Of a stretch of 41,724 nt of DNA, positions 5,890 through 39,989 are shown piece after piece. Below the pieces are notes generated by a model, which saw nothing but the letters and a program-made list of their open reading frames with translations, did no database searches and had not been told where the DNA came from. A program made the position numbers and the translations under genes. The stretch's first letter is position 1, and every line of letters starts with the position of its first letter. Source of the stretch: Planctomycetaceae bacterium (GTDB lineage Bacteria; Planctomycetota; Planctomycetia; Pirellulales; Pirellulaceae); assembly GCA_007121535.1 (NCBI GenBank), contig SKKK01000488.1, forward strand, positions 1 to 41,724, read 5' to 3'.

Positions 5890-6060
5890 AGTGCACCCGG
5901 CCAAAAGTTTCTTGCCAATTGAGGTAGCCTTGCACGGCGACGCAACGGGGTCGGGAGTCGTTTTCGGCCAACGATCTACCACATGGGAAGCGGGTTACCC
6001 GAAAACGACTCCCGACCCCTTTCGCCCGATTCCAGCAAAAAACATCCGGCCGGGTGCTTA
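5890..6060. mobile_element. Family-2 MITE-like element, copy 2
   Basis: About 171 bp. The right end GGCCGGGTGCTTA (6048-6060) is the inverse of the left end GCACCCGGCC (5893-5902). Inside are the word CTTGCCAATTGAGGTAGCC and a large hairpin whose arms contain GGGAGTCGTTTTCGG. The copy at 25610-25851 has the same ends, the same internal words and the same order. There is no ORF, which fits a non-autonomous element. It lies between the RND permease stop and the AlbA gene start. Confidence 0.8.
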
Positions 6061-6102
6061 TGCCCTACAAAGTACATTGGCGGACCGCCGAAATCAAGCG
6101 TT

Positions 6103-14313: not shown

Positions 14314-16905
14314 GTGATCATGCCCAGACGTTTCGTAGCCGTCCACGTGCGGTGGTTGGCCCTGATTGTGCTGCTGGTCGTAGAAACGGCTGCTTCCGCC
14401 GTTGGTCAAGATGATCGGCACGCGCCGTGGCCTGACGCTGCGGTTTCGAACTACTTTGCGGAACGACCTTGGCTTGCCGAGTTGACCGCCGCGTTGACGG
14501 CGGACGCATCTTCGGCCCATCGCACCGCCAGGCACTTGGCGACGAAGCATGCAGGCGATCGTTTGGTGTTGGAGGCGATCGTCGACTGGATCCGCGTCGA
14601 TTTCGCATCGGCCGATCCGTCCATCCCGAATGTGCCCCCACCCGCCGACGGCACGGCGGATGCGGCAATGGATCACCGCTTGTTGACGGGCATCCGAAGG
14701 ATCATCGCCGAACTTGGCGAGGATGCGCCAGCAAGCCATCACCTGCGAGGACGCGTCGAGCATGCATCGAATCGAAAGATCCCATCAAGCGATCGTTGGT
14801 GGGCCGAACTGTATCTGGACGCTGCCGTGATGCGTCGGGCGGCGCGTCTGGGTCCGCACCGCGACGTGTTGCAGCGAGTGGTGTTTGCCAAGCATTTCCT
14901 GATGGGCGGGTCCCACTACGCCTATACCGAGGGTCAGTCGGACGCTCAGCACGAACGGCACTTTCATCCCGGCAGCGCCCTGTGCCTGCTGAATTTGGAT
15001 GGCGTGTTCGCCTCGATCGAATACTTGATCGATGACCCTCACGGCGTGATCCGCGATCCCGATGTCCATTATGACGGCGATCGGATCCTGTTCGCCTGGA
15101 AGAAGTCCGATCGCGAGGACGATTATCACTTGCATGAATGGAATCTGAACACCGGCCAACGTCGCAAGTTGACCGATGGGTTGGGCTTTGCCGATTACGA
15201 AGCTGCCTACCTGCCTGACGGGAACATCGTTTTCAACTCGACCCGTAGCGTGCAGACGGTCGATTGCTGGTGGACCGAGGTCAGCAATCTGTTCTTGTGC
15301 GACGGCGATGGCCGGTTCATGCGGCAGGTGGGGTTCGACCAGGTGCATACGAATTTTCCGACGGTCACATGGGATGGTCGAGTGATCTATACCCGGTGGG
15401 ACTACAACGATCGCGGCCAGATCTATCCGCAGGGCCTGTTCCAGATGAATCCCGACGGGACCGGTCAACGAGCTTTGTACGGCAATAATTCGTATTTTCC
15501 CACCACTTTGATCCATGCCCGTTCGATACCGGGAACTCGCAAATACGTGGCGATCTTCACCGGGCACCACACGACGCAGAAGGGTTGGTTGGGAATCATC
15601 GATCCCGCGCTGGGCCGCGAAGAGAATCTGGGGGCTCAATTGATCGCGCCCGTTCGTGAAACGCCCGCCGATCGGATCGATCGGTACGGGCAATCAGGCG
15701 ATCAGTTTCTTTATCCGTATCCGCTGAACGAGCGGGAATTTCTTGTCAGCTTTCAACCCGATGGTCAAGGGCAATTCGGCATCTATTACATCGACCGGGA
15801 CGGACGCCGGGAACTGCTGGCCAACGACCCGGCGATCCACTGCAACCAGCCGATCCCCGTCCGAGTTCGTCCTCGTCCAACGCCTCGGCCCAGTCTGTTG
15901 GATTACCGCCAGACGACCGGGCAGGTCTTGATGCAGGACGTGTATCAGGGTCTGGGGCTGCCGGGGATTCCCAAAGGAACCGTCACCGCGTTGCGAGTGA
16001 TTGCGTTGGAATATCGAGCGGCCGGGATCGGTGAAAACCGGAACCGGGGACCGGCCGGAAGTGCGTTGATCAGCACGCCCATCTCGATCGAGGGCGCCTG
16101 GGACGTGAAACGCATCCTGGGCACCACGCCCGTCCAACCGGATGGCTCTGCCTTCTTCCAGGTACCGGCTCGTACCCCGCTGTACTTCCAAGCGATCGAC
16201 GCGCAGGGACACGCGGTCCAGACGATGCGGAGTTGGACGACCTTGATGCCCGGCGAGGTCCAGTCGTGTGTCGGGTGCCACGATCATAAGAACTCGGTTC
16301 CGCCGCCGATCGGACTGGCTCAGGCAGCGTCCCATCCGGCGCGTCCGTTGGACGAATTCTACGGGCCGCCGCGAGGGTTCAGCTTTATTCAGGAGATCCA
16401 GCCGATCCTGGATCGCCGCTGTGTGGTCTGCCACCATCAGAACGAAGCCCCCGATCACCTGAACGACCCGGAGGCGCCGCGAGGTGATTGGCAGCGGGAT
16501 GACGACGAAAAGATCGTCCCTTCGTTCAGTCTCCGAGGTCGCCAGACACTGGATGCGACGGCCCAACGATTGTGGAGCGATTCGTACGTGGCGCTCGCCC
16601 ATCGACGAGTCGCCGATTGGGTCAGCCCGCAATCGTCTCCGTCGATCCAGGCGCCTTATTCGGCCGGCGCCTCGCAGAGTCCGCTGATCGCCATGTTCGA
16701 CAGCGGTAAGCACTTTGGCGTTGTCCTCAGCCGCGAAGAACTGGACAAATTGGCCTTGTGGATCGATCTGCTGGTCCCGTACGCAGGGGACTACATCGAG
16801 GCCATGAACCCCGAAGTGGTGCCCCGCTATCTGCATTTCCTAGAGAAACGCCAACGCTGGCAGGCCGAAGAGGCCAGGAACATCGAATCGATGCTGCACC
16901 GTTGA
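14314..16905 (+). CDS. Diheme beta-propeller protein, HZS-alpha-like
   Basis: 863 residues (or 861 from the second ATG at 14320) with an N-terminal signal (WLALIVLLVVETAASAVGQ). The N-terminal third is alpha-helical. A TolB/WD-like propeller follows (about 230-520), with blades such as DPDVHYDGDRILFAWK, YLPDGNIVFNSTRS and TWDGRVIYTRWDYNDRGQIYP. The C-terminal part holds two haem c sites, C652-VG-C655-H and C703-VV-C706-H (DRRCVVCHH). This is the layout of the 'hydrazine synthase alpha subunit middle domain' family, which is common in non-anammox planctomycetes. No beta/gamma hydrazine synthase subunits are here, so anammox chemistry is not implied. Probably a periplasmic c-type cytochrome of unknown substrate. 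Confidence 0.82.
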   Translation: MIMPRRFVAVHVRWLALIVLLVVETAASAVGQDDRHAPWPDAAVSNYFAERPWLAELTAALTADASSAHRTARHLATKHAGDRLVLEAIVDWIRVDFASADPSIPNVPPPADGTADAAMDHRLLTGIRRIIAELGEDAPASHHLRGRVEHASNRKIPSSDRWWAELYLDAAVMRRAARLGPHRDVLQRVVFAKHFLMGGSHYAYTEGQSDAQHERHFHPGSALCLLNLDGVFASIEYLIDDPHGVIRDPDVHYDGDRILFAWKKSDREDDYHLHEWNLNTGQRRKLTDGLGFADYEAAYLPDGNIVFNSTRSVQTVDCWWTEVSNLFLCDGDGRFMRQVGFDQVHTNFPTVTWDGRVIYTRWDYNDRGQIYPQGLFQMNPDGTGQRALYGNNSYFPTTLIHARSIPGTRKYVAIFTGHHTTQKGWLGIIDPALGREENLGAQLIAPVRETPADRIDRYGQSGDQFLYPYPLNEREFLVSFQPDGQGQFGIYYIDRDGRRELLANDPAIHCNQPIPVRVRPRPTPRPSLLDYRQTTGQVLMQDVYQGLGLPGIPKGTVTALRVIALEYRAAGIGENRNRGPAGSALISTPISIEGAWDVKRILGTTPVQPDGSAFFQVPARTPLYFQAIDAQGHAVQTMRSWTTLMPGEVQSCVGCHDHKNSVPPPIGLAQAASHPARPLDEFYGPPRGFSFIQEIQPILDRRCVVCHHQNEAPDHLNDPEAPRGDWQRDDDEKIVPSFSLRGRQTLDATAQRLWSDSYVALAHRRVADWVSPQSSPSIQAPYSAGASQSPLIAMFDSGKHFGVVLSREELDKLALWIDLLVPYAGDYIEAMNPEVVPRYLHFLEKRQRWQAEEARNIESMLHR

Positions 16906-25609: not shown

Positions 25610-25851
25610 TAAGCACCCGGCAAGGAGTTTCTTGTCAATTAAGGTAGCCTTGCATTGGGGCCGCAACGGGCTCGGGAGTCGTTTTCGGGCAACGATTCAC
25701 CACAAGGAAAGCAGGTTCTCCGAAAACGACTCCCGCCCCCTTTCGCCCGATTCCACTAAGTGGCGGTAACAAAACCGCCTGACGGCTCGGAGAGCCATCC
25801 TACATGGGCGGTTTTGTTACCGCCTCTAAAAAATATCTGGCCGGGTGCTTA
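25610..25851. mobile_element. Family-2 MITE-like element, copy 3, carrying a nested insertion
   Basis: Perfect 12-bp inverted ends TAAGCACCCGGC (25610-25621) and GCCGGGTGCTTA (25840-25851). The order inside equals copy 2: TTTCTTGTCAATTAAGGTAGCC, then the hairpin with GGGAGTCGTTTTCGGG. After CCCGATTCCA it is interrupted by a hairpin element (25762-25824), absent from copy 2, before AAAAAATATCTGGCCGGG resumes. So it is a 242-bp version of the 171-bp element. No ORF. Confidence 0.85.
25762..25824. repeat. GGCGGTAACAAAACCGCC hairpin element nested in the MITE
   Basis: 18-bp perfect inverted arms, GGCGGTAACAAAACCGCC at 25762-25779 and its complement at 25807-25824, flank a loop with GGCTCGGAGAGCC. 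A related element lies at 38983-39074. Its absence from MITE copy 2 shows that it inserted, or was swapped in, after the MITE formed. Confidence 0.8.
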
Positions 25852-26902: not shown

Positions 26903-27655
26903 ATGTCCGCCAACGAAGCAAATCGTTCCACACCGGGCGCGCTGTCGTCAGACGCGGTCCGGTGTGCCGCTGCGCGGACTGCGGAAGCGGTCACTGGTCC
27001 GCAACGCCGGGCGGAGCTAGAACTGGTGAGCAGGCTGATTGCGCGGGACGAGGCGGCATGGCAAGAACTGATCGACAGCTATCGCGGCGCCGTTCTGCGC
27101 GGCGCGATCCGCGGACTGACCGAGCTTCGCGTGACTCCGACAGAGGCCCGCATCGAGGAAGTATGTGCCGATGTCGTGTTTGCGCTGTTCCGGAATGATT
27201 GTGCGGCGCTCCGGAGCTTTCAGGGGCGCAGCACCCTTTCGACGTGGCTTGCCGTGATCAGCCGTCGAGTCTGCATAGCCACCCAGTTGAAGCACGAGCG
27301 GATCGGTTCCGCGCGAGCCATCCACATGTGGGATGTAGACTGGCAGGCGTTGCCCGCCCGCCATACTTCCGAGGATCCGGCTGAGGAACGGACAGGAGAT
27401 CTTCGGTTGATGCAGGCCTGTTTCTCCAAGCTGTCGGCCTCGGATCAAGTCATTCTGGAACTTTGCTTTCTGAAGGGACTTTCTTATCAGACGATCGCGG
27501 ACGCGCTGGGCATCACGAGGAACGCCGTGGGACCGAAACTCACACGCGCTCGGCAACGGCTGCGTCGGTTGATGGTCCTGCAGCGACAGGCCGCGACAAC
27601 CGGCCCGGCCACCCCCACAGCCTTGATGAGGAGGGACGAACATGGCTCCCTATAG
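26903..27655 (+). CDS. ECF-type RNA polymerase sigma factor
   Basis: 250 residues. Region 2 spans about 40-115 (LIARDEAAWQELIDSYRGAVLRGAI, then ALRSFQGRSTLSTWLAVISRRVC). Region 4 spans about 175-225 (LSASDQVILELCFLKGLSYQTIADALGITRNAVGPKLTRARQRLRRL). An N-terminal extension of about 40 residues precedes region 2. It should direct RNA polymerase to a small extracytoplasmic-stress regulon. Its end overlaps the next gene by 14 nt (translational coupling), and that gene encodes a membrane protein that could be its anti-sigma factor. Confidence 0.9.
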   Translation: MSANEANRSTPGALSSDAVRCAAARTAEAVTGPQRRAELELVSRLIARDEAAWQELIDSYRGAVLRGAIRGLTELRVTPTEARIEEVCADVVFALFRNDCAALRSFQGRSTLSTWLAVISRRVCIATQLKHERIGSARAIHMWDVDWQALPARHTSEDPAEERTGDLRLMQACFSKLSASDQVILELCFLKGLSYQTIADALGITRNAVGPKLTRARQRLRRLMVLQRQAATTGPATPTALMRRDEHGSL

Positions 27656-29387
27656 CAAGAGGGTGTTGGAACTGCTCCGGTTGCTCGACCGATCCTTGGC
27701 CGATATCGACGACGAAGTCTTGCGTCGGCGCTTGACGAACGAGCCTGAGTTGCAGGTGCAAGCCGAGCGCCTGCATCGCGCATTGGCGGAAGTAGCGATG
27801 GACCAGCAGACGACGGCGGACGACGACGGCCCGTGGGTGGACGCCGAGGCGGTGGCCGCGTTGCTCGACGAGCGAGGACTGGCGTCATCCCTATGGCCGG
27901 CACAGGACGACGGCTCGGATTTCGAGACAAATGGTCGGACCGGTCAAACGGCGGAATTATGGGCGGCAGCCGCAACCCGTGGCCTGCGGTTCGCGCTGCG
28001 TCAGACCATAACCCCGGCGTCTGTTCCCCCACCAGCGCCGCTGGTCGTCCAGCAACGGGGTCGCGGATCACGGCGCCGCCGGTCATCAAGTCGGCTGGCC
28101 GGATTGCCTTGGCAGCGTTGGACCGTCGCGGTCGCGGTTGCCGTTGCGTCGTTTGTCGGCGTGACGTGGGGGACTTGGAAGTATCGTCAGTCGCGTTCGC
28201 CCGGGCCGGTTTCCGTTCCCTTCGGAGTTCAGACCGACCCTCGGCCGCGGACACCCGACGCACGCGATGGGCTGGGCGATCCCGAAGCGATTCGGCAGCC
28301 TGATAAGACGCTTCCTTGGGCAACAACTGCCGCTGTGGATCCGTTGCGTTGGGAGCGGATCAGCGGTGTGTTGGTGGGCTTGCCGAGAGGAACGGAATCT
28401 TGGAGGCCGGTGCTGGCGGCGACGTCCGAACACTTGAGCCCCGGCGACGACTTCGAAGAGTTCCGCACATTGGGAAACAGTTGGGCCGAGGCTCGTACCG
28501 CGACGGGAATTCGCGTCGTTGTGGGTGCCAACGCCTCCGTGCGTATCGAGATCGTGAGAACCGAGTCGGTGAGAATCGAACTGGCGGTTCGACGTGGGAA
28601 AATCGGTTTGAGCGACCTGCCCGTGCTGGCCGAGATCGTCTTCTCCGATCGATACGCCGAGACTGTCTGGTGGGTCAGCGAGCATCAAACGTCATTGGCT
28701 CTGGATTCTGATGACCCTACTGGCGAATTGATGCTGGTACAAGGGGCCATCCAGAATAACGGTCAAGCGTTCCGCGGTCCCGCGAGACTTTCGTTCGACC
28801 GGCAAGGTTGGGACGCCCGACAACTCGTCCAACGGCTTCCTTGGCTCGCGGGACCACCGGATCTGTCGCCCGTCGAGCAGACGCTTGCCGGCATCCTTCA
28901 CCGGGAGCAGGACGTCGTCGAGGGGCTGATCGTCGATCGCGCCGATCTGGACGAAACCCAGATGGAGGTCGCCGTCCAATGGTGCTTGACCATCGATCCG
29001 GTGAGAGCGGTGCCCTTGGCACTGGTTTCTGCTGAGGCCGTTTACCGTGAGGCTGCCTTCCAATGGCTCGTCGACCCAGCCCGCGACCCGGGAGAACTTC
29101 GGCGAGTCTTAGTCGAGATCCAAAGGATTGTGCAGCCGTCGAATTCTGCTGCTGCTCGCTGGATTATGGTGGCGCGAGGCGAAGTGCCGCCCTCCAAGAC
29201 TATGACGGAAAACATGCTTGTCGGCCTGCGGCCGTCCGAGCAACTGTTCGTCCGCGAACTGGCGGTCGCGACCCTGTCCCGACTGACCGGCCAATCGTTC
29301 CCGGCATACAACCCACTCGCTCCGGACCGGAAAGGCATCCAGCAGGTAACCAGCGCGACACGCGCCTGGGCCAGTCAGCTTCCCTAG
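27642..29387 (+). CDS. Membrane-anchored protein coupled to the ECF sigma factor, possible anti-sigma
   Basis: 581 residues with the ATG inside the sigma gene. The cytoplasmic N-terminus (about 1-157) is charged and helical, in the position of an anti-sigma domain, but has no zinc-binding HxxxCxxC motif. One membrane helix lies at about 158-177 (RWTVAVAVAVASFVGVTWG). The rest should be periplasmic, with a FecR-like beta-rich portion (GIRVVVGANASVRIEIVRTESVRIELAVRRGKIGLSDL, about 285-325) and an alpha-helical C-terminus. The topology and coupling suggest a sensor that holds the sigma factor. I could not place it in a named family. Confidence 0.7.
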   Translation: MAPYSKRVLELLRLLDRSLADIDDEVLRRRLTNEPELQVQAERLHRALAEVAMDQQTTADDDGPWVDAEAVAALLDERGLASSLWPAQDDGSDFETNGRTGQTAELWAAAATRGLRFALRQTITPASVPPPAPLVVQQRGRGSRRRRSSSRLAGLPWQRWTVAVAVAVASFVGVTWGTWKYRQSRSPGPVSVPFGVQTDPRPRTPDARDGLGDPEAIRQPDKTLPWATTAAVDPLRWERISGVLVGLPRGTESWRPVLAATSEHLSPGDDFEEFRTLGNSWAEARTATGIRVVVGANASVRIEIVRTESVRIELAVRRGKIGLSDLPVLAEIVFSDRYAETVWWVSEHQTSLALDSDDPTGELMLVQGAIQNNGQAFRGPARLSFDRQGWDARQLVQRLPWLAGPPDLSPVEQTLAGILHREQDVVEGLIVDRADLDETQMEVAVQWCLTIDPVRAVPLALVSAEAVYREAAFQWLVDPARDPGELRRVLVEIQRIVQPSNSAAARWIMVARGEVPPSKTMTENMLVGLRPSEQLFVRELAVATLSRLTGQSFPAYNPLAPDRKGIQQVTSATRAWASQLP

Positions 29388-30266
29388 GCGTGACCGCGTC
29401 CCTCGCGTCGTCCAGCCGGTCTTGACAGGTGCGCCGACTCAGCCCATTGAATCACCCTCAGTGTTTGGGTGCGGAGTTTGTGTTTGGGGTCAAATCTTGA
29501 GGAAGTCGGGCGAAATTGAGCCTCGGTGTGCGGTGGCGCTCAGATGACTTCGTGCTTTTTTCAAATCACGCGGCCGACCTCAGCGTTATCCGCTGAGGCT
29601 GGTCATGACGGATCTTGTGCCATTTCAGGGTGTGCAGCAGGAGGACCGCCAAACCCGCGTGGAGACGTGTCACAGCCAAGCCTTTCCAACAGGCATGCTG
29701 TACGACTTGGTGATTCATCAGATTGTTGACGATCCCCTCGCTCATCGCCCGCTGCCTTGTGCATCAGATCCCGAGTCCGTTGCGGATCGGCTTGCATTTG
29801 CGCAGCATGGATCACCGAGTCCTCGCGATACACATGGATGCACAGCATCCGTCACTTCGATCTGTTACTGGCGCTCGAAAAGTGCCTTGGCATTTGGGTA
29901 GTGGCTGAAGTGTGGTGGAACCGCACCGAACTAGCCAGCGGCGCTGGTTGGCCAACCAATCTCCCCAGCATCCCGTCTCCAGCGATTGGCCACGAAATAC
30001 CTCCGCGCACCGCACCACTTCGCATTTCGCCGGGCTTTTTCAAGGCGTGCCCCCTTTCTTGCCATGACCCCATTCTCGACCCCATTCTCCAACTTCTGCG
30101 CGATTCTGTCTATTGTAAGCCTCCGGGGAAAACGGTCCAATGGATTACTTGACGACCCGTTGGCCGAAACGAGCTGTTGCCGCGTGTCCGCCGCGCCCGT
30201 GATTCGACGTCCTGTAAGGTGAACCCGACATCTCTGGAAACGGCTAGGAAAGCAGGAGCTAGACTT
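29388..30266. other. Long spacer with possible transposase relic
   Basis: 879 bp with no intact gene. Minus-strand frames at about 29590-29850 look like transposase debris (see that entry). The stretch just upstream of the BNR pseudogene carries its ribosome site (GCAGGAG). No terminator was recognised after the sigma operon. Confidence 0.5.
29590..29850 (-). pseudogene. Possible decayed transposase C-terminus
   Basis: Reading minus strand, one frame gives RMLCIHVYREDSVIHAAQMQ and another, just downstream, NNLMNHQVVQHACWKGLAVT followed by RLHAGLAVLLLHTLKWHK. The second resembles the end of DDE transposases, where a neighbour-of-parent pattern 'N.LK.H...R..GLA.V..H..L' is common. It is a weak call made from memory, with a frameshift between the parts and no inverted repeats found. 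Confidence 0.3.
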
Positions 30267-32046
30267 ATGAAACGCAAACGGTGGATTTTCGTCCTGGCCG
30301 GCGCTTGGTGCGGCGCCGCCTTTTCCTTGCAGATCTCCCCGGACCCTACGACCGGCGCCGACGACGAGGCCGATCGGACCTCGCTTTTCGACGGCACGAC
30401 GCTCGCCAGCCGGAAGGCAAACGAGAACGCTGATGTGTGGCAACCGGTGCCGATTAGCACCCGGGCGCAACAAACGGCAGGATATGGTGGCGGCGAGGGG
30501 TTTCAAATGATCTGGGGCATCCAGTATGCTCCTTCCAATCCCGACATCGTGTACATGGTGGTCGACACATCGCAGGTATGGAAGAGCACCGACGGGGGCG
30601 CCAGTTGGCAGCGGAAGCAGAAGGGATTCTACGCAAACGGGGGAGCTTCGCTCGGGGTTCATCCCACCGTTCCAGACATCGTCTTTGTTGCAGGGGGACA
30701 GATGGGGGGCTGGAAACAGCTTACTCCCAATCGCGACGGGATATACAGAACTCTTGACGGAGGCGAAAGCTGGCAGTTGGTCAAGGCAGGGCATCACTTC
30801 AGCCGTTATGATACCGGCGAATTATTCCAATTTCCCTCGAAAGACGTCGTTTATGCGGGAACCTTCGATGCCGGTATCCTGAAATCGACCGACAACGGCG
30901 AATCGTGGAGCACGATGGTTCCTTTCGCGACGACTGGAATGGTTCACGACATCAAGCTTCATCCGGACGATGGGGCGATTCTTTTTGTATCCAGCGCCAA
31001 CGGCTATTCGAAAGTAGAGGACAAGGCCGGAGGCGTCGCAGTGAGTCCTATCGGCAAGGGCCTGGCCAGCCCTCAGGTTTCCGTCATCAGCAAGGACAAC
31101 CCCGGCATCATTCATGCCATTAACGGCGACGATGACAGGATCTATCGCTCGACCGATGGGGGGCAATCGTTTCAGCCTTGTATTCAGCAATCATACGGGC
31201 AAGAGGACAAGGAGACTGGCGATCAGCCCCGTGGATTCCAACTATATGTTCGTGAGTTATGGGCCGAAGTCATACGGAAAGAACGAGGAGTTCTATTATA
31301 CTCACGATGGCGGGCGCACCTTCAGGAATTTCAATGCCCGATATAACGGCCAGGCGGCGTGTCATGCTGTGTCCTTGGACCCGACGCCCGGGTCCAAGGT
31401 GATCGTTGCAGCTTGCGGGCATAATCACGACGGGTAGATTCTTCAAGTATCGAGAGATAAGTTCCTGAGCACCGACAAAGGACACACCTGGTCACGGGTC
31501 ACCCGGGACGGTGGCCCCGTCTACGTCAAGGCGTTGTTTCCCGGAAACGGAGATGTGATTTAGGCGACCAGCGGAGCAGCGATCTACAAGTCCAGGGATC
31601 GGGGCAGGCACTGGTCGACCCCCTATCCGTCCTTGGATGTAGCTAGGGGAGGAATTCAACAAATTGCCGTGGACCCGGACGATGAAGACAGATTGTATGC
31701 GGGCGTCCCGGGAAAGGGCGTGTATGTCGTAACAAGAGACCAAGCTATGCTCAGAAACAGGGATCATGGGATCGACTTGCCCTATTTCGGCGTTTATAAG
31801 ACCGACTGGGTGGCCGTGGATCCGAATGACGCCAATATCGTCTATGCGGCAAGCTGGACAGGCGCATGGGGACACGTCGACGAAGCGATTTTCCGGTCAA
31901 CCGACAAGGGGATTAGCTGGCATGGGATAACCCATAATCGGGCTCCCATCAACGTCGGGGCCATTTCCGTCAATCCGCACGACGGCTATGTCCATGTCGG
32001 GACAATGCACGGCACCTGGAAGTTGCAACCTCCGGGCGCGCGATGA
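30267..32046 (+). pseudogene. Secreted BNR/sialidase-like repeat protein, frameshift and two stops
   Basis: The start at 30267 has GCAGGAG upstream and a signal peptide (KRKRWIFVLAGAWCGAAFS). Repeated BNR Asp-box-like motifs follow (VWKSTDGGASWQ, IYRTLDGGESWQ, ILKSTDNGESWS, IYRSTDGGQSF), the pattern of photosystem-assembly-like/VPS10-type propellers. Near 31150-31210 the frame shifts by one; the new frame continues the same protein (TRRLAISPVDSNYMFVSYG) but meets TAG at 31435-31437 and 31561-31563 before ending at 32046 (IFRSTDKGISW... TWKLQPPGAR). Three lesions make it a likely pseudogene; the intact length would be about 590 residues. Confidence 0.8.
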
Positions 32047-32076
32047 CGGGGCATTTCCACTAACGAAGTGGGAGGA

Positions 32077-32169
32077 TAAGCACCCGCACACGAGTTTCCT
32101 GGCACAATGTAGGATGGACATCCTTGTCCGTCATGCGGCATAAGACGGACAGCAATGTCCATCCTACAT
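32077..32169. repeat. Composite hairpin with a single family-2 MITE end
   Basis: TAAGCACCCG at 32077-32086 followed by GAGTTTCCTGGCA resembles the left end of MITE copy 3. It leads into a hairpin with ATGTAGGATGGACAT (32107) and its complement ATGTCCATCCTACAT (ending 32169). No right end is present. It lies between two pseudogenes. Confidence 0.6.
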
Positions 32170-32174
32170 CCGTG

Positions 32175-34220
32175 TGATGGACAGCCCCAACGCTCAGGGC
32201 CGCAGCGGACCTTACAACCACGACAATCACTTGACGTTCATCGCCGATCCCGCCGGAACGATCTTCGTCAGCGCGCCGGTGATCAACGAAGGGTCAGGCG
32301 ACCTGGTCTTCGCGGCCGATGCGATCCGGATCGGCGGTGAAGTGTCGACTCAGGGCCAAGTGATCCTGCAGCCGCTGCTGCCGGACACGAGCATCGGGAT
32401 TGCCGGCGCGGCGGGTGGGCTCCAGATCAGCCAAGCGTCGATCACCAACGTGACGGCCGCGCAATTGGTGAACGGGCAGGCGGCGGGGCAGCACGAGATC
32501 ACGGTGACCGAAGTGATTTTCCCGCTTCGACGCTGCTTCGCGCTCCGCTGGGGCCGAAGATCACTATCGACGGCCCCGTAACGGCCGAGCGGGACTTTGA
32601 AGCCATCGCCGGCCGCATTGACGTCAACGCTTCGATCCTGAACGAGTCCGATCACGACATCGCGCTGCACGGCGAGACCGAGGGCGTGTTTATCGGCGAT
32701 GGTTCGCAGAAGGAGGAGATCGCCGTCGCAAGCCGGGACGGAATGACCCAGATCTCCGGTGCTTCGTTGACGCTACGCGGCAGCAATTCCACGGACGGCG
32801 CGTTGGCCATGATGGGATACCGTGTCGACGACTGGGGTGATGTCGCAGGCGACATTGTGGTCGATGTCTCTAAATTCGTTCTTCTTCAGCCTCAGGAGTC
32901 CTGACCTCCGCGCCGGTTCGCCAGCGATCGATCGCGGCGATTCCTGGGCCGGCCCGGCGACGGACCGCGACGGATGTCCCCGCCGCGACGACCCCGCGGT
33001 GCCCAACCAGGGAAGCCCCGACTACTTCGTCGAAGATCTCGGCGCCAGCCTGTTTGCGCCGGCCGGCGAACCGCGCGGGTGGCGCGGCAACAACAACTTC
33101 TGGCTATTGACGCTGCCGTTTTCGTTTCCGCTTTACGACAAGAACTACTCGACGGTGCTCGTTTCATCGAACGGTTTCCTCCATTTCGAGGGCCCCTAGT
33201 CAGCCTCTGACGGGGCGAACTCGACCGAGAAACTCGCCCCCAACGTTCGCATCGCGCCGCTGTGGGCCAACCTCCGCACGGACGGCCCCGGCGACGACAT
33301 TTTCATCGACGACACCCTGCCGGGCCAGGTCACCGTCCGCTGGCAGTCCACCGCGGCCAGCGACGGCGGCGAAGTGAACGTCGCCGTCACCCTTCTGAGC
33401 GACGGGCAACGCGGGCTTGGAGCCCACCGTCGGCATTTCGCGGGGGGACGGGCGGAACCGCCTCGTGGCGCCCTACACCGGCGCCGGCGACCTCGGCGGC
33501 GCGCCCTCGCTGGGCTTCGCTCTCGCCCCGGGGCTCGTCGATCTGGGGGCTCATGAGTTCCAAGGATCGACGCTCGACGCGACGCCCCCGATCGTGGTCG
33601 GCACCGAACCGGCCGCGATCCACGAGCAATCGGGCACCGGCAGGGCCGTCCACCAGATCGAAGTCACCTTCGACCAGCCGGTCAATCCCGTCGATGCCCG
33701 GTCGCCCAGTACGTACGAGTTGCGGGGCAGCGACGACCGGCTCGTCACGCTCCTGCCGCGCTATCTGGCCGAGAGCCTGTCGGTGCTGATCGAGTTGGAC
33801 GTGCCCGCGCGCGGTTTGCCTGCGGACACGGGTCGCCTCGAGCGACCTCAGCGAAGGCACCGTCTCGACCGGGTTGCTGGTCTTCACCCCCGAGAACTGG
33901 AATCTGCCGCAGACGGTGGTGGTCACCGGAGTGGACGACGACGTGCTGGACGGAGACGTAGCTTACCAGATCCTGCTGGGTCCGGCCAACAGCGAAGACC
34001 CTCGCTACGACGGTTGGGAACTGCCCGGCGTGTCGGTCGTGAATCGGGACAACGACGTTCCCACCGTAAAGCTGCTGGCCGCCGAAGACCGGACGGCCGA
34101 CCAGGGCTCAGCACTTACCATTGTCGTGCTCTTCAACTCGAACGTTCCGGCTCCTCACACCGCCACGATCGACTGGGGAGATGGGACGATCGTCCCGGTG
34201 GATCCTCACGAGTCCGGCGG
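32175..34220 (+). pseudogene. Remnants of a giant secreted surface protein
   Basis: Pieces of one or more large planctomycete surface proteins in different frames, none with a start. They run: about 32200-32515 filamentous-type repeats (GDLVFAADAIRIGGEVSTQG, then ITNVTAAQLVNGQA); 32521-32904 in another frame (DGPVTAERDFEAIAGRIDVN); 32905-33410 with LRAGSPAIDRG and a domain reading WLLTLPFSFPLYDKNYSTVL, an in-frame TAG at 33197-33199, then APLWANLRTDGPGDDIFIDD; about 33417-33830 TVGISRGDGRNRL and TPPIVVGTEPAA; and about 33830-34220 FTPENWNLPQTVVVTGVDDD with a PKD-like ATIDWGDGTIV. Four or more frame changes and internal deletions. The 3' end is cut at the junction with the ankyrin pseudogene. 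Confidence 0.75.
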
Positions 34221-37200
34221 CAGGTGCGATCGACCTCGCCGCCATTGTCCAGCACCAGGCGGGCGGCGGCCGGATCGTTCTCCAGCGCCGCCCGGTGCAA
34301 TACGCTGTAGTCCGGGATCGGGCTTTGCAATCGGCCACCGGAATCGCGGCGCTGTGGGAAACGGACCTTGTCCGTGTGCTCCAGAAGGCGTTGACAAGAC
34401 CAAAAGTAGTACACCTGCCCCGCATCCACTGCCCGTTTCACCCGCTGATACAAACCGCTCGGTTTGAACCGGTCTGGGGCTTCGTCGGAAAGCCTCGCGG
34501 CGATGTCGACGAAGCCGCGCTCGGCTGCGATCGCCGGCGCCGTTCGGTCCATCGCATCGGGCACGTCCGCCGAGGCGCCCGCGTCGAGCAGCAGATCGAC
34601 GATTTCCATGTGGGCCGCCGCGGCCGCCCAGTGCATTGGCGTCCGTCCCCAGCGGTCCTTCCGGTCCAATCCCGTGCCGGCCTCCAGCAGCAATGCGCAT
34701 GTGGTGCGGTGCCCGTAGAAAGCCGCGCGGTGCAGGGCCGTGCGACCGAAGGAATCGCGCACGTCCGGATCGGCCCCTCGATCCAGCAGATCGCGCACCG
34801 CCAGATCATCACCGAGCGCTGCCGCGGAAAGGAACCGCGCCGGATCAACCGGCTCGTCTACCGCCCGTTGGCGAGCCGCCTTCAGCAACAGCGCTACTAC
34901 GTCGTCGTGTCCGGCTTGCGTGGCGTGTTGCTGCGGCACCTTGCCGGCGTCATCCCGAGGTTCCGGCTGAGCGCCGTGCTGCAAGAGCAACCGGACTGTC
35001 TCGACCGCCCCGGCGGCTGCCGCCAGATGAAGCGGGCGGCGCTGCTGGGGCTACGGGTGCCGATAAGATCGGGAAAGGGCCCGATGATCAGCCCGACGTC
35101 GGTGCGTTGTTCGAGATCGGCCCCGGCAGCGATCAGGGCCTGCAACGATTCGGTCTGGCCGTGATGCGCCGCCGCTTGCAGGGCCGTCGCCCCGAGCGGG
35201 TCCGTGGCGTTGATCTGAGCGCCCTTGTCCATCAGGATCTCGATCAGGCCCACGTGCCCCAGCACCGCGGCGATATGCAGCGCCGGCCGCACGTCCGGCG
35301 CCGACGCTTCCCGGCGCAGCTTCAGATCCGAACGCATCCGTTGTCCGGGCATGGCGAGAAACCGCTGGTTGGGGTCGGCCCCTTCGGCGAGTAATTCCGC
35401 GACGGCTTTTTCGTCGCCCCCTACCAAGGCGAAGAAGTACGCCGCTCTACGCTGCCACGTCGCCGGCTCGGTGTCGGCGTACGTTTCCAGCAGCCGCCCA
35501 CACTGCCAGCGGCCCCCGGGCGCTCTCCGTTGCAGCTCACCAAGCGTCTGGGGTTCTGGCTGAAGGTACAGCAACAACACCTCCAACACGTCGGCCCGGT
35601 CCTCGTTGGCCGCAATCGCTTCGACGATCCACTCTCGGGACTGCTGGTCGTTGACGTGCCCGTCGGCGTAGTGAAGCAATAGGGCCGCCGCAAGGCCCGC
35701 ATCCAGATTCTTCCGGGACCGGAGCGGTCGGCTGACAAGCTTCGGAAGATGCACGGGATTCGTCCGCTCCAGCAGCATCTGCATCACCGGCAGGTTGATG
35801 TGGGGCGAGACCGCGTGTTCCAACGCCAACCGTCCATGGACGCGGGCCTCCGCGTCGGCTCCCTGCTCCAGCAGCAGGCGCACAAGTGTGGCGTCGTCGG
35901 CCCGCACCGCCGCGTACAACGGCGTTTCAAGATCGAGACGGAATCCGCGCTCGTCCCGCCCGCTCGCCGGCTGGCTCTGCCGACCGGCAGGCAGGCCCCG
36001 CACGTCCACCGGGCCGCCCTGCTCGAACCATGCCCTCACGGCCGTATGATCCCGCCGTTGGATGGCGTCGAACAATTCCTGAGAATCATGTCGGGGGCCG
36101 TCCCCACGTGCGGCCTCCAACAGCCCGGCCAGCTCGTGATGGCCGGCGTCGCCCGCCAACTCCTCCGGTAGCCGTCCCGCCCCATCCACGCGATTTGCCG
36201 CTGCCCCCTGTTCCAGCAACAGCTTGACGAACTCATCGTGTCCCTGCTGGGCCGCCACGTGCAGGGCGGCCTCGTCGGCCAGGACTTGCAGCAGCTCCCG
36301 GTGACCCCTGCTAACCGCCAATTCAGCCGCCCCGCAAAACGCTGCTCCGACGCCTCGACGCCCTGACCCAGTAAGTAGCGGACGACGGCCACGTGTCCCG
36401 CGGCTGCTGCGGCCTCGAATGGGCGCCGGTGCCCCGGGCTCATGATCCAAAGCCTCAGATTCTGCGGGATCTGCCCATCGGCGTCGGCACCGGACGCGAC
36501 CAGCACGCGCAGAACATCCAGGTGTCCTAAACCAGCCGCCAAATAGGTCGCCCACACGCGCTGCATTTCGGCGTGATCGCTCTCCTGCCGGAGCCAATAC
36601 TGCACTTGCTGAACATCACCCGTCAAGGCAGCATGCACAAGGTCCTGCGGCTGGCCGGCGCGGGGACGCAACAGATCGAGATCACCGGGATGTCTCAACG
36701 CCACCTTGGCCAGGAACATCGAACCGGTGCCGCTCATCCCTCCCGGGGCCAACGGATCAGCTCCGTGCTCCAGCAGCGCTTTCACGGTCGCCCGCCGTTG
36801 AGCGTCTTCGATTTCCTTGGTCAGCCCGGTCATCAGCGCAGCGAAGTGCGGATCGTACACGTTATGCAGCGGAGTGGCGCCCAGCTCGTCGGACGCATGC
36901 ACGTCCGCTCCATGATCCAGCAACAACCGCACCGCTCCCGCCCGAGAAAGCGAAGCCGCCAGGTGCAGCAGCGTCAGGTTGCCGGGCTGGTGCTCTCGGA
37001 AAGCCGGCTCAAGCGCACCAGCGGCGTCCCTCGCTTCCGCGTCTTCCTCGGGCATCAGGACGACGTTGGGATCGGCTCCTTGCCAAAGCAACCGATCGAG
37101 CGCATCCAGATCGTTCTCAATAATCGCCTCGACCAGCGGGAGCCCGAGTCTTGTGCCCTCGACCTTCTCACGCGATCGGGCGTCTATGCCACCGGACTCG

Positions 37201-37361
37201 ACAAGCGGTTCTTGCGGGGCCTCCTGGGACCTGCCTGGCTCGTAGCCTGAGAGGAGGCCCATCCCAGCCGCTGCAACAATCAGTCCGCACACCACGGTTC
37301 CGAGCCCGCAACGCTCGCCCAACGCAGCACTGTTCAGCGGTGGCCAGTCTTGCGATTTCAC
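34221..37361 (-). pseudogene. Long ankyrin-repeat protein, two frameshifts, 3' end lost
   Basis: The start (GTG) at 37361 gives a signal/anchor (GTVVCGLIVAAAGMGLLSG). Ankyrin repeats follow (NLTLLHLAASLSRAGAVRLLLDHGADVHASD). The frame shifts near 36335; the next frame continues (HVAAQQGHDEFVKLLLEQGA, DDATLVRLLLEQGADAEAR, PALHIAAVLGHVGLIEILMDKGAQIN). It shifts again near 35045-35065, and the third frame continues (LHLAAAAGAVETVRLLLQHG, TALHRAAFYGHRTTCALLLEAG, PMHWAAAAAHMEIVDLLLDAGA). It ends abruptly at DNGGEVDR, where homology stops and surface-protein debris of the opposite strand begins. Repaired, it would exceed 1000 residues. The frameshifts may be mutations or assembly errors; the lost 3' end is a rearrangement. 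Confidence 0.8.
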
Positions 37362-37719
37362 TTGATGCCCTGTTGGAACTCGCTTTGGAATTCCGCTTAC
37401 AAATCTTTCTCATCCTTTCGGGCGGCTATTGCGCACTGGTGTTCTACGTTCTTTTGAAAGAGAGCAACGCAGCCGAGTTTCGTGATGGCCGCTTCGACTT
37501 GCGTGCGCGCCACCTCGATTCGTTTTTGACGATACTGCGTTTGATGACCTGCTGAGAGAGCAGTTTGGCAATCTGGGCGGCAAGCGACAGCCTACCGTCG
37601 ACAACCCACACTGCTCGGCCCGCAATTGACGACGAAACCGACGCCTCAGGCGTCGTGAGTCCAGGCCGCAAAACAGTAAGAAACACCCGTTGGTGGCCCG
37701 ACAATAGTAAGTCGCGGTA
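37362..37719. other. Spacer without recognised genes
   Basis: 358 bp. A minus-strand frame (37444-37704) with RLSLAAQIAKLLSQQVIKR has no family that I recognise and no good start. No repeat or terminator was identified. Confidence 0.4.
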
Positions 37720-37945
37720 CTAGTCGGTCAACTCGAAAACGAAATCATGTTCTTCTCCCAACTTTACCTGCGCGGTAAGGCCGCTGGTTTGGGGATGTCC
37801 GTACTTTTCGGGAATCAACGAACGACGCCGTGCCGTTGCCGCCAGGTCAGCGGCGGTCAACGATGACTCGAATGCGGCGGGATCCGTGGCTTCGAATGCC
37901 GGGTCTACTTCAGGTTGAAAAACCACCGTCGCGTTTGGTACTGGA
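37720..37945 (-). pseudogene. 3' relic of the small lipoprotein that usually follows DUF1559 genes
   Basis: The frame reads VPNATVVFQPEVDPAFEATD and ends SLIPEKYGHPQTSGLTAQVKLGEEHDFVFELTD. This is the pattern of the small carboxypeptidase-regulatory-like lipoproteins commonly found just downstream of DUF1559 genes in planctomycetes (PVPGATVVFTP... IPAKY...LTAEV...F.L). The N-terminal signal and middle beta domain are missing, so only fused ends remain. It directly follows the DUF1559 relic, so both came from one ancestral pair. Confidence 0.6.
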
Positions 37946-38350
37946 TCAGAACTGGCCGACCGGTTCTCCGGTTCTTCGGCCGCCGAGCCGCTGATAGGTT
38001 ATGTGGTCGATTGTTTCGCTGAGGAAGTGAACACTTCCATCCACGAAAAGAAAATTCACGCCACCTGGGTGAAATGACTTGAAGCCCCACGAGTAATTAT
38101 AGTTGGCTTTCTCAGTGCAGGCGGGATTGCTGATCTGCGCCGCAGGCACTTTGTCGCTGGTGGTGCGTTCGTTGATCGGCGTGACGGTCGAGGCATGGGC
38201 GTTACCCATCCCATTGGAGAACCACCATCCGTACGTGGGATGCGAGTGACAGTCCGGTCGCACCTCACCGACGAACAGCACGTTCGACGAGCCATCGGTC
38301 ACGTCCCGCATGCCCTTCGCGCAGGACAATACGCGGCGGCTGGGATACAT
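37946..38350 (-). pseudogene. 3' fragment of a DUF1559 protein
   Basis: 134 residues beginning with an internal segment (GMRDVTDGSSNVLFVGEV) and containing the C-terminal H-x9-DG motif in HPGGVNFLFVDGSVHFLSET. The prepilin N-terminus, which should span about 200 more residues upstream, is absent: sequence beyond 38350 has no DUF1559 similarity. This is a truncated gene, not a small intact one. Confidence 0.8.
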
Positions 38351-38417
38351 GTGGTTGAAAAGCAGGGTCGACCGCCGATTCCTCGACGTCTACCGAAAGA
38401 AACCGGTCGGATGAGTG

Positions 38418-38891
38418 TCACGAAGGCGGCGAGAGCTTCGTCCTGACGAGCCAGTAGGTCAAGCCGAGCGCCAGCACCAGCGCGGCGCTCGACCAGAGGT
38501 AATCCGGATCCAGTTCCCCGAAGTCGAACACGATCACTTTCCGCGACACCGCCATCAGGGCCGTGGCCACGACCAGCTTCACGTGGATCACGTCCTCGCG
38601 AAGGTAGAGCGTGATATTGACGAAGATCTCGATGGCGATCAGCACGGCAAGGAAAGCGCCGAAGATCGCCAACATATCGTTGAAATCCAACAGCAGAAAC
38701 GGTTCAGCGATGACCCGCCGGTATAAAGTAAAGCCGACGTCCAGCACGCCCCAGATGATGACCAACACCATCAGGCCCGCCAGCACCCGGACTACTTGAC
38801 GGATGACGACATCGGCAACGCGGATGACGGGATCCGGCGACTCTTCGGCTTTCCAAATATGTTCTTCTCGGTCGTTGTCGTCGTGCTGCAT
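38418..38891 (-). CDS. PsiE-family membrane protein
   Basis: 157 residues with a charged N-terminus (1-25) and four predicted membrane helices (about 28-52, 67-94, 103-120, 130-148). It shows the PsiE family features: LLDFNDMLAIFGAFLAVLIAIEIFVNITLYLRED, then HVKLVVATALMAVSRKVIVFDF. E. coli PsiE is induced by phosphate starvation; its biochemical role is not established. The homology is clear, but regulation by phosphate here is only inferred from the name. Confidence 0.9.
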   Translation of the reverse strand: MQHDDNDREEHIWKAEESPDPVIRVADVVIRQVVRVLAGLMVLVIIWGVLDVGFTLYRRVIAEPFLLLDFNDMLAIFGAFLAVLIAIEIFVNITLYLREDVIHVKLVVATALMAVSRKVIVFDFGELDPDYLWSSAALVLALGLTYWLVRTKLSPPS

Positions 38892-38982
38892 TGTCAGCGG
38901 CTCCGTAGTTCACCGACACCCCGCTTGTGTGGCCTTCTGGTGACGCGGTTCAAAACATTCTGTTTTCGTGGCCTGCTGGTTA

Positions 38983-39074
38983 GTCGCCGTAACAAAACTG
39001 GCCCGTGAGACCTACGGTCGGCGGTTTCGGCGGGGTCAGAGACCCGCGCCGAACCGTGGGCGGTTTTGTTACGG
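38983..39074. repeat. GCCGTAACAAAAC hairpin element, second copy
   Basis: Left arm GCCGTAACAAAACTGGCCC and right arm GGGCGGTTTTGTTACGGC are near-complementary. An inner stem CGGTTTCGGCG / CGCCGAACCG closes on GGGTC-AGA-GACCC. It shares the GTAACAAAAC arms with the element nested in the MITE at 25762-25824. It lies between the psiE gene start and the ric gene stop and may act as a terminator. Confidence 0.75.
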
Positions 39075-39184
39075 CCTCGAAGCGAAACGGGCCTAAATGG
39101 CCGGAATGGTAGCCGTCGTCCGCCGAGACTGCAACCCCCTGAAAACTTGGCTTGTGCATTTTCTCCGCTAGTGAAAGGTCTTCG

Positions 39185-39913
39185 CTACGACGTGGACGCT
39201 TGTCGCTCCGATTCCAAACGGACCGCTTTCGGGAACAACACATTGTTCTCCTTGTGAATATGCTGGTGCAAATCGCCTTCGAGTTGCCTCAATCCGTCCA
39301 ACATGGCTCGGTACGTGTTGCAGGCCCACTCGGGCACTAGGTAATCGTCGGTCGATTGCCGCAACACCGCCAGCGCGTTGCCGGCGTTGTCGTGCTCGAA
39401 CTCCATCTGCCGGATCGGGTTGGCTACCGAACCGCAATGAAAATCGGGAAGATCCGTCGAGGATTCCAGTTGCCGGATCATCGGAAACAGGATCTGCTCT
39501 TCCTTCATCATGTGTTGGGAAAGCTCCTCGAAAAGTCCCTCAAACGCCCGGCGGACATCCGCCAATCGTGCCTCCGCATCGCCATGCACCTCGTAAACCT
39601 TTTCCGTCATGGCATCCAATCGAGGCAACTCGGATTTCATGTACTGGTGATGCGTCTGCTCGATATGGTCTACCAGTTCCGTCAGAGACATCGCGTCGGC
39701 ATCGACAATCGTCCCATCGTCAACAGCCTGCAGATCGGCTTGTTCGATCTGTTGCAGAACGGTCTGGACGTCCAGTCCCCGCTTGACACACGCTTCGCCC
39801 AGCGGCACCCCGCCACCGCAGCAGTAATCGATCTGCAGTTGTTCGAAGAGTCGAGAGCGGTTTGGATTGGCCTTGACCAATTCCCCGACCGTAGCTTGCC
39901 CACTGAGTGTCAC
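39185..39913 (-). CDS. ric: Iron-sulfur cluster repair di-iron protein (RIC/ScdA/YtfE)
   Basis: 242 residues. The N-terminal ScdA_N/DUF542 domain (about 1-60) has the signature DYCCGGG (Cys31-Cys32). A hemerythrin-like di-iron bundle follows, with ligands in HIEQTHHQYM, ELSQHMMKEEQILFPM, EFEHDNAG and LHQHIHKENNVLFPKA. RIC proteins repair Fe-S clusters damaged by nitric oxide or peroxide in the cytoplasm. Homologues are often controlled by NO-responsive regulators. Upstream lie a hairpin element and an AT-rich dyad (40119-40146) that could belong to its promoter. It stands alone, with no NO reductase nearby. Confidence 0.94.
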   Translation of the reverse strand: MTLSGQATVGELVKANPNRSRLFEQLQIDYCCGGGVPLGEACVKRGLDVQTVLQQIEQADLQAVDDGTIVDADAMSLTELVDHIEQTHHQYMKSELPRLDAMTEKVYEVHGDAEARLADVRRAFEGLFEELSQHMMKEEQILFPMIRQLESSTDLPDFHCGSVANPIRQMEFEHDNAGNALAVLRQSTDDYLVPEWACNTYRAMLDGLRQLEGDLHQHIHKENNVLFPKAVRLESERQASTS

Positions 39914-39989
39914 AGATTGCTCCTTTCAAATCGACATATCGTGCGATGCATCTCGTTCCGTTTCAGGACGACCAGCAACCTCGCACAAA

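Follow-up and report, generated by a model that had tools for sequence, protein, structure and literature searches.

The window analysed here is a contig of 41,724 nucleotides (SKKK01000488.1, no. 661 of the 706 contigs in a 9.32-Mb draft genome of a Planctomycetaceae bacterium, GCA_007121535.1). Its positions 29388-38350 hold a genuine cluster of broken genes (Table 1). From left to right, the remnants derive from a protein with BNR repeats, a large surface protein, a protein with ankyrin repeats, possibly a small secreted protein, and a DUF1559 protein. The observation made in a first-pass annotation, namely that five neighbouring genes are broken here, is thereby confirmed: all five remnants were found, the one described as a small lipoprotein on weak evidence. 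The annotation did not contain two further elements, the relic of an insertion sequence at the left edge and a palindromic repeat beside the BNR gene. A scan of the stretch detected no Rfam family at threshold and no tRNA.

Table 1 Remnants, repeat elements and flanking genes in and around the cluster of broken genes
Feature	Position	Strand	Evidence
Open left neighbour, 581 aa	27642-29387	+	Open frame; downstream of an ECF sigma factor gene
Internally deleted, degenerate IS1182-type element	29485-30065	-	DNA match to genus-mate copy; transposase pieces
BNR/Asp-box (Sortilin-Vps10-like) protein pseudogene	30267-32046	+	Pfam; nine intact relatives; profile alignment
Palindromic repeat element	32077-32169	.	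Matches on own-genome contigs; fold
Large surface-type protein remnant	about 32170-34221	+	Frame breaks; partial match to repeats
Ankyrin-repeat protein pseudogene	about 34222-37361	-	Pfam ankyrin repeats in three frames
Possible small secreted protein, C-terminal remnant (tentative)	37723-37998	-	Open tail with coding signal
DUF1559 (SBP_bac_10) protein, C-terminal remnant	37946-38389	-	PF07596, E 8e-18; TIGR04294
Intact right neighbour, PsiE family	38418-38909	-	Pfam
ScdA/hemerythrin gene	39185-39925		Pfam

The BNR remnant carries Sortilin-Vps10/BNR repeats according to Pfam and has an N-terminus that looks signal-like by eye; a PDB search yielded one weak match only (E 6.6e-06). A search of 391 phylum genomes returned 13 matches besides the remnant itself, of which nine, drawn from eight genomes, made up the aligned set of intact relatives and four were left out. 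The comparison with relatives that the first-pass annotation had proposed as a check thus turned up nine intact versions of the gene, and it exposed one frameshift near 31175, in-frame TAG stops at 31435 and 31561, and two missing stretches of about 100 and 37 residues that are present in all nine aligned relatives. On the profile of these relatives, the first frame of the remnant corresponds to positions 2-255, while the next frame corresponds to positions 250-305, 407-459 and 496-690. At the larger gap (~100 positions), one Asp-box of the remnant fits both flanks. Both gaps are in frame and may therefore be older than the inactivation of the gene. The missing stretches also support a part played by rearrangement in the region.

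The large surface-type remnant has neither a start nor an end and is read in five segments, with frame switches near 32525, 32902, 33402 and 33830 and an in-frame TAG at 33197. The final part of the remnant is similar to tandem repeats carried by large open proteins in two genomes (G046 and G010; 42-59% identity), and Pfam gave no match in the three pieces scanned, nor in 33790-34221. Only weak matches to one of its fragments (P0003) were found in 2 of the 59 near genomes (E 4e-5 at best); in one genus mate the weak match had an E value of 1.6e-4. The surface remnant and the ankyrin gene, which lie on opposite strands, meet tail to tail at about 34222, and at this junction the 3' end of the ankyrin gene is cut off and missing. 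The Pfam repeats of the ankyrin gene run through three successive frames, with switches near 36324 and 35025, and therefore indicate two frameshifts. At E 1e-20, the 59 near genomes yielded nothing similar to one part of this gene (P0004); for its N-terminal part (P0005), 391 other phylum genomes were searched at E 1e-25, likewise without a match.

Of the DUF1559 protein, only positions 154-266 of the 268 in PF07596 are retained, and the remnant ends in the C-terminal H-X9-DG motif (TIGR04294). DNA matches in this area were short and occurred in four near genomes. The adjoining small-protein tail, which presumably resembles a small lipoprotein, had no Pfam match and a single weak BLAST match (E 0.097). 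The protein comparison of these two remnants covered the loci retrieved for the other analyses.

The insertion-sequence relic marks the left edge of the cluster. Over 367 bases, its segment 29485-29851 shares 85% identity with a copy in a genus mate (G001:C759), and its C-terminal transposase pieces, found in two minus-strand frames, match the C-terminus of a 470-aa partial transposase of the genus mate. This partial transposase scored above the cut-off for Pfam DDE_Tnp_1_6 and matched NCBIfam IS1182 at E 1.5e-27 with 96.6 bits, under the cut-off of 270, so that "IS1182-type" denotes a likeness and not a filed member. Both terminal inverted repeats of the relic are recognisable by eye, also in the copies. 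The own genome contains more fragments of the element, of which four lie at contig ends (among the best 40 of 101 candidates). The relic thus has C-terminal transposase pieces and inverted ends in common with IS1182-family insertion sequences; unlike these, it has lost most of the transposase gene. The palindromic repeat, located directly after the BNR gene, has matches on at least 18 other contigs of the own genome (among the best 40 of 101 candidates), and its segment 32105-32171 is predicted to form a strong hairpin as single-stranded DNA (-23.3 kcal/mol, z -7.6).

In order to quantify the density of broken frames, we trained a codon-usage scan on 40 control stretches (550,773 bp) taken from the same genome and called a frame break where the coding signal switches frame and the previous frame remains open for at least 25 bases. 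The control stretches, two of which gave no coding signal and were kept in the totals, contained 32 such breaks. Within the 8,963 bp of the cluster we found 6 breaks compared to 0.52 expected, and the highest control count at equal size was 4 breaks, reached in 1 of 504 overlapping windows. By break density, too, the region is a pseudogene cluster, and the claim that its decay is clustered and not random is borne out. The corresponding Poisson probability of 1.8e-5 should be read as indicative, because the region had been picked for its broken look. At 37996, one of the six breaks marks the point where two remnants join and is no frameshift; junctions of this type were counted in the controls as well. 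The switch at 32902 is not among the six, as the frame preceding it runs precisely to that frame's stop codon. The breaks of the BNR gene are likewise outside the count; they escape the scan because this gene has weak codon bias and were detected by homology instead. Three frame-break marks were found in the remaining 32.8 kb of the window. As a point against the decay interpretation, the codon usage of most remnants (piece 32902-33196 left out) falls inside the range of intact genes, which implies that either the decay is fairly recent or there are few breaks. As disabled homologues, the BNR gene is identified against its nine intact relatives and the ankyrin and DUF1559 genes by Pfam, whereas the surface remnant is recognised solely by its frame breaks and partial match, and the small protein tentatively.

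The genes on both sides of the cluster had been described as intact. This holds insofar as the flanking genes are open and the PsiE and ScdA/hemerythrin genes cover nearly the full length of their Pfam profiles; for the 581-aa left neighbour, which has no match to any Pfam family, completeness cannot be judged in this way. Neither the left neighbour nor the PsiE-family gene had a match at E 1e-5 in the 59 near genomes. Among the genes in 27642-39925, the ScdA/hemerythrin gene alone had a long DNA match to a genus mate (75%), and the G002 contig bearing this gene matches the stretch nowhere else. In the genus mates, no close counterpart was found for the left neighbour or for any of the BNR, surface and ankyrin pieces, and a DNA search with the full stretch in the 59 near genomes returned only repeats and short partial matches. 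None of these genomes offered a relative close enough for the count of synonymous and non-synonymous changes that had been envisaged. The trait common to the pieces is a lack of conservation, which one intact gene to the left and one to the right of them also show. As far as tested, the stretch appears to be specific to its lineage.

The distribution of BNR relatives gives a hint as to where one of the genes may have originated. Among the 59 nearest other genomes, the best match was a weak BNR-type one (E 6e-14), and a search for related loci with the BNR piece alone found nothing. Matches at E <=1e-25 were present in 10 of 391 other phylum genomes (E 1.9e-28 to 7.7e-64), and eight of these ten fall within a single family, with Ca. 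Loosdrechtia (Ca. Loosdrechtia aerotolerans, SOER01000002.1) and Ca. Brocadia (Ca. Brocadia pituitae, AP021856.1) as named members. We take Ca. Loosdrechtia, Jettenia and Brocadia to be anammox-type planctomycetes. Their large BNR/Asp-box proteins have a domain in common with the remnant that extends across ~690 profile positions, at identities of 41-43% for four proteins and 33-37% for three others. These proteins are open, with lengths of 1530-1754 aa (four) and of 732, 735 and 2003 aa (three), whereas the remnant is broken and shorter. At 41-43% identity, the four closest relatives do not identify a donor. Nearest relatives outside the own family combined with a patchy distribution were found for the BNR gene only, the ankyrin and surface genes having no close relative by which they could be placed. 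The distribution and the identities make a foreign origin of the BNR gene probable. Gene loss in the relatives would be the alternative to transfer.

We also asked how far the BNR remnant has departed from its intact relatives. It keeps 48 of the 57 positions that are invariant in all nine. An equally diverged relative retains 72 of 77 conserved positions compared to 48 of 62 for the remnant (Fisher P = 0.011), a second relative 72 of 79 compared to 53 of 62 (Fisher P = 0.42), these being the two of nine relatives for which Fisher tests were made; the most diverged relative and the remnant are about equal (72 of 85 and 55 of 68). These values hint at a loss of constraint, short of proof. The relaxed selection put forward in the first-pass annotation is accordingly only weakly suggested: the loss of conserved positions is significant against one relative and not against another, and the remnant is on a par with the most diverged one.

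An apparent cluster of this kind might be produced by sequencing or assembly error, with indels or a chimeric contig making intact genes look broken. The genome is a draft in 706 contigs and each single frame break could be a single-base error; the BNR frameshift follows directly after a run of six G (31158-31163) and alone could therefore be an indel error. Elsewhere, however, 551 kb of the same assembly contain 32 frame breaks, and part of these may simply reflect normal boundaries between genes. The loss of gene ends and of internal stretches, like the in-frame stops, is atypical of indel errors. The longest homopolymer within 30 bases of seven tested frame switches (the BNR one excluded) was 4, which is also true (<=4) of 88% of 2000 random sites, so that this test neither accuses nor strongly clears assembly error. 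Error could account for single frameshifts but hardly for the truncations and deletions, and we reject it as the whole explanation, leaving it a low probability. The TAG codons raise the further idea that the genes are functional by recoding, in which TAG would be decoded as an amino acid and the frameshifts would be programmed, since all three counted in-frame stops (31435, 31561 and 33197) are TAG. Yet TAG terminates 48 of 211 long open reading frames in the control contigs as well as the gene immediately to the left, and recoding would leave the truncated genes unexplained. We rejected it as highly improbable.

A further reading, along the lines of the first-pass annotation, is that an ancestral surface or secretion island is decaying under relaxed selection on one function. 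The decay is indeed clustered, and several remnants are secreted or surface-exposed in appearance, judged by eye and by family. However, no searched genome has the genes together, the BNR, surface and ankyrin genes being without close counterpart in the 59 near genomes; the pieces differ in strand, family and relatives and are not linked or conserved as a unit there, and one intact gene to the left and one to the right are just as unconserved. The island interpretation did not stand up to these comparisons, and we regard it as improbable. The surface-type fragments without starts could alternatively form a silent cassette store for surface variation that acts by gene conversion into an expressed copy. 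A DNA search of the own genome found no other copy of 32180-38350 except one 65-base match of 75% (among the best 40 of 101 candidates), and a search of this genome with the surface fragment P0003 recovered that fragment alone. As the assembly yielded no further copy within this scope, the cassette store was rejected, and we give it next to no credence.

The breaks, the truncations, the insertion-sequence relic and the lack of close relatives in the genomes searched were observed directly, and we consider it likely that they reflect a pseudogene cluster in a lineage-specific region, in which poorly retained and partly foreign genes are decaying, and not a former surface island. Under this interpretation, the lineage would have gained the genes, probably by horizontal transfer, one of them with its nearest relatives in anammox-type bacteria. 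The gained genes may have been of too little benefit to be retained, and as selection lapsed they would have been lost via frameshifts, nonsense mutations, truncation and internal deletion. The decay would have proceeded beside the insertion-sequence relic and the palindromic repeat, and mobile elements may have aided the rearrangement. In a bolder version, the site would be a recurrent landing and decay spot, where foreign genes, including large anammox-type BNR-repeat proteins, repeatedly enter and erode, and where insertion sequences and the palindromic repeat give breakpoints; we regard this as a speculative possibility with rather modest chances.

Overall, the feature is ordinary in kind, as gene decay of this sort is an ordinary process in bacterial genomes. 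It provides a small, clear example of a large planctomycete genome gaining and losing genes of the secreted and surface type. It also gives a hint that genes may flow between anammox-type bacteria and planctomycetes of other kinds, while the general understanding is unchanged. The top results of a literature search contained nothing specific on planctomycete pseudogene clusters or anammox transfer. In Liu et al. 2004 (PMC522871), failed horizontal transfer is named as a common source of prokaryotic pseudogenes, and transferred genes are in excess among them. The pseudogenes described there are similar to those reported here in being patchily distributed genes with frameshifts, stops and truncation; unlike those cases, five remnants lie within 9 kb here and no donor is identified. 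The disabled genes also resemble those leaving the bacterial genome in the account of pseudogene turnover by Kuo and Ochman 2010 (PMC2916853), which compares Salmonella genomes, whereas our single genome does not allow age and rate to be set.

The codon-usage scan detected four frame breaks, at which the coding signal jumps frame while the old frame remains open for at least 25 bases, within ~8.6 kb of one control stretch (L089) of the same genome. These breaks perhaps represent a second decaying cluster. In the window, the palindromic repeat has matches on at least 18 further contigs of the same genome and is predicted to form a strong hairpin as a single strand. Copies of a second short repeat, which is located between the PsiE and ScdA/hemerythrin genes, were found in the genus mates G001-G003 and in some further near genomes. 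A third repeat family occurs at three sites in the window, and each of them matches one and the same site on the genome's contig 102.

Coordinates of the features described (window unless stated otherwise)
Feature	Position
Control stretch L089	contig 248, 10201-30000
Palindromic repeat	32077-32169
Second short repeat	38986-39082
Third repeat family	230-320, 5893-6061, 25612-25760
Open protein with hydrazine synthase alpha middle-domain match	14314-16905

An open protein of 863 aa has a Pfam match to the hydrazine synthase alpha middle-domain (E 6e-32).
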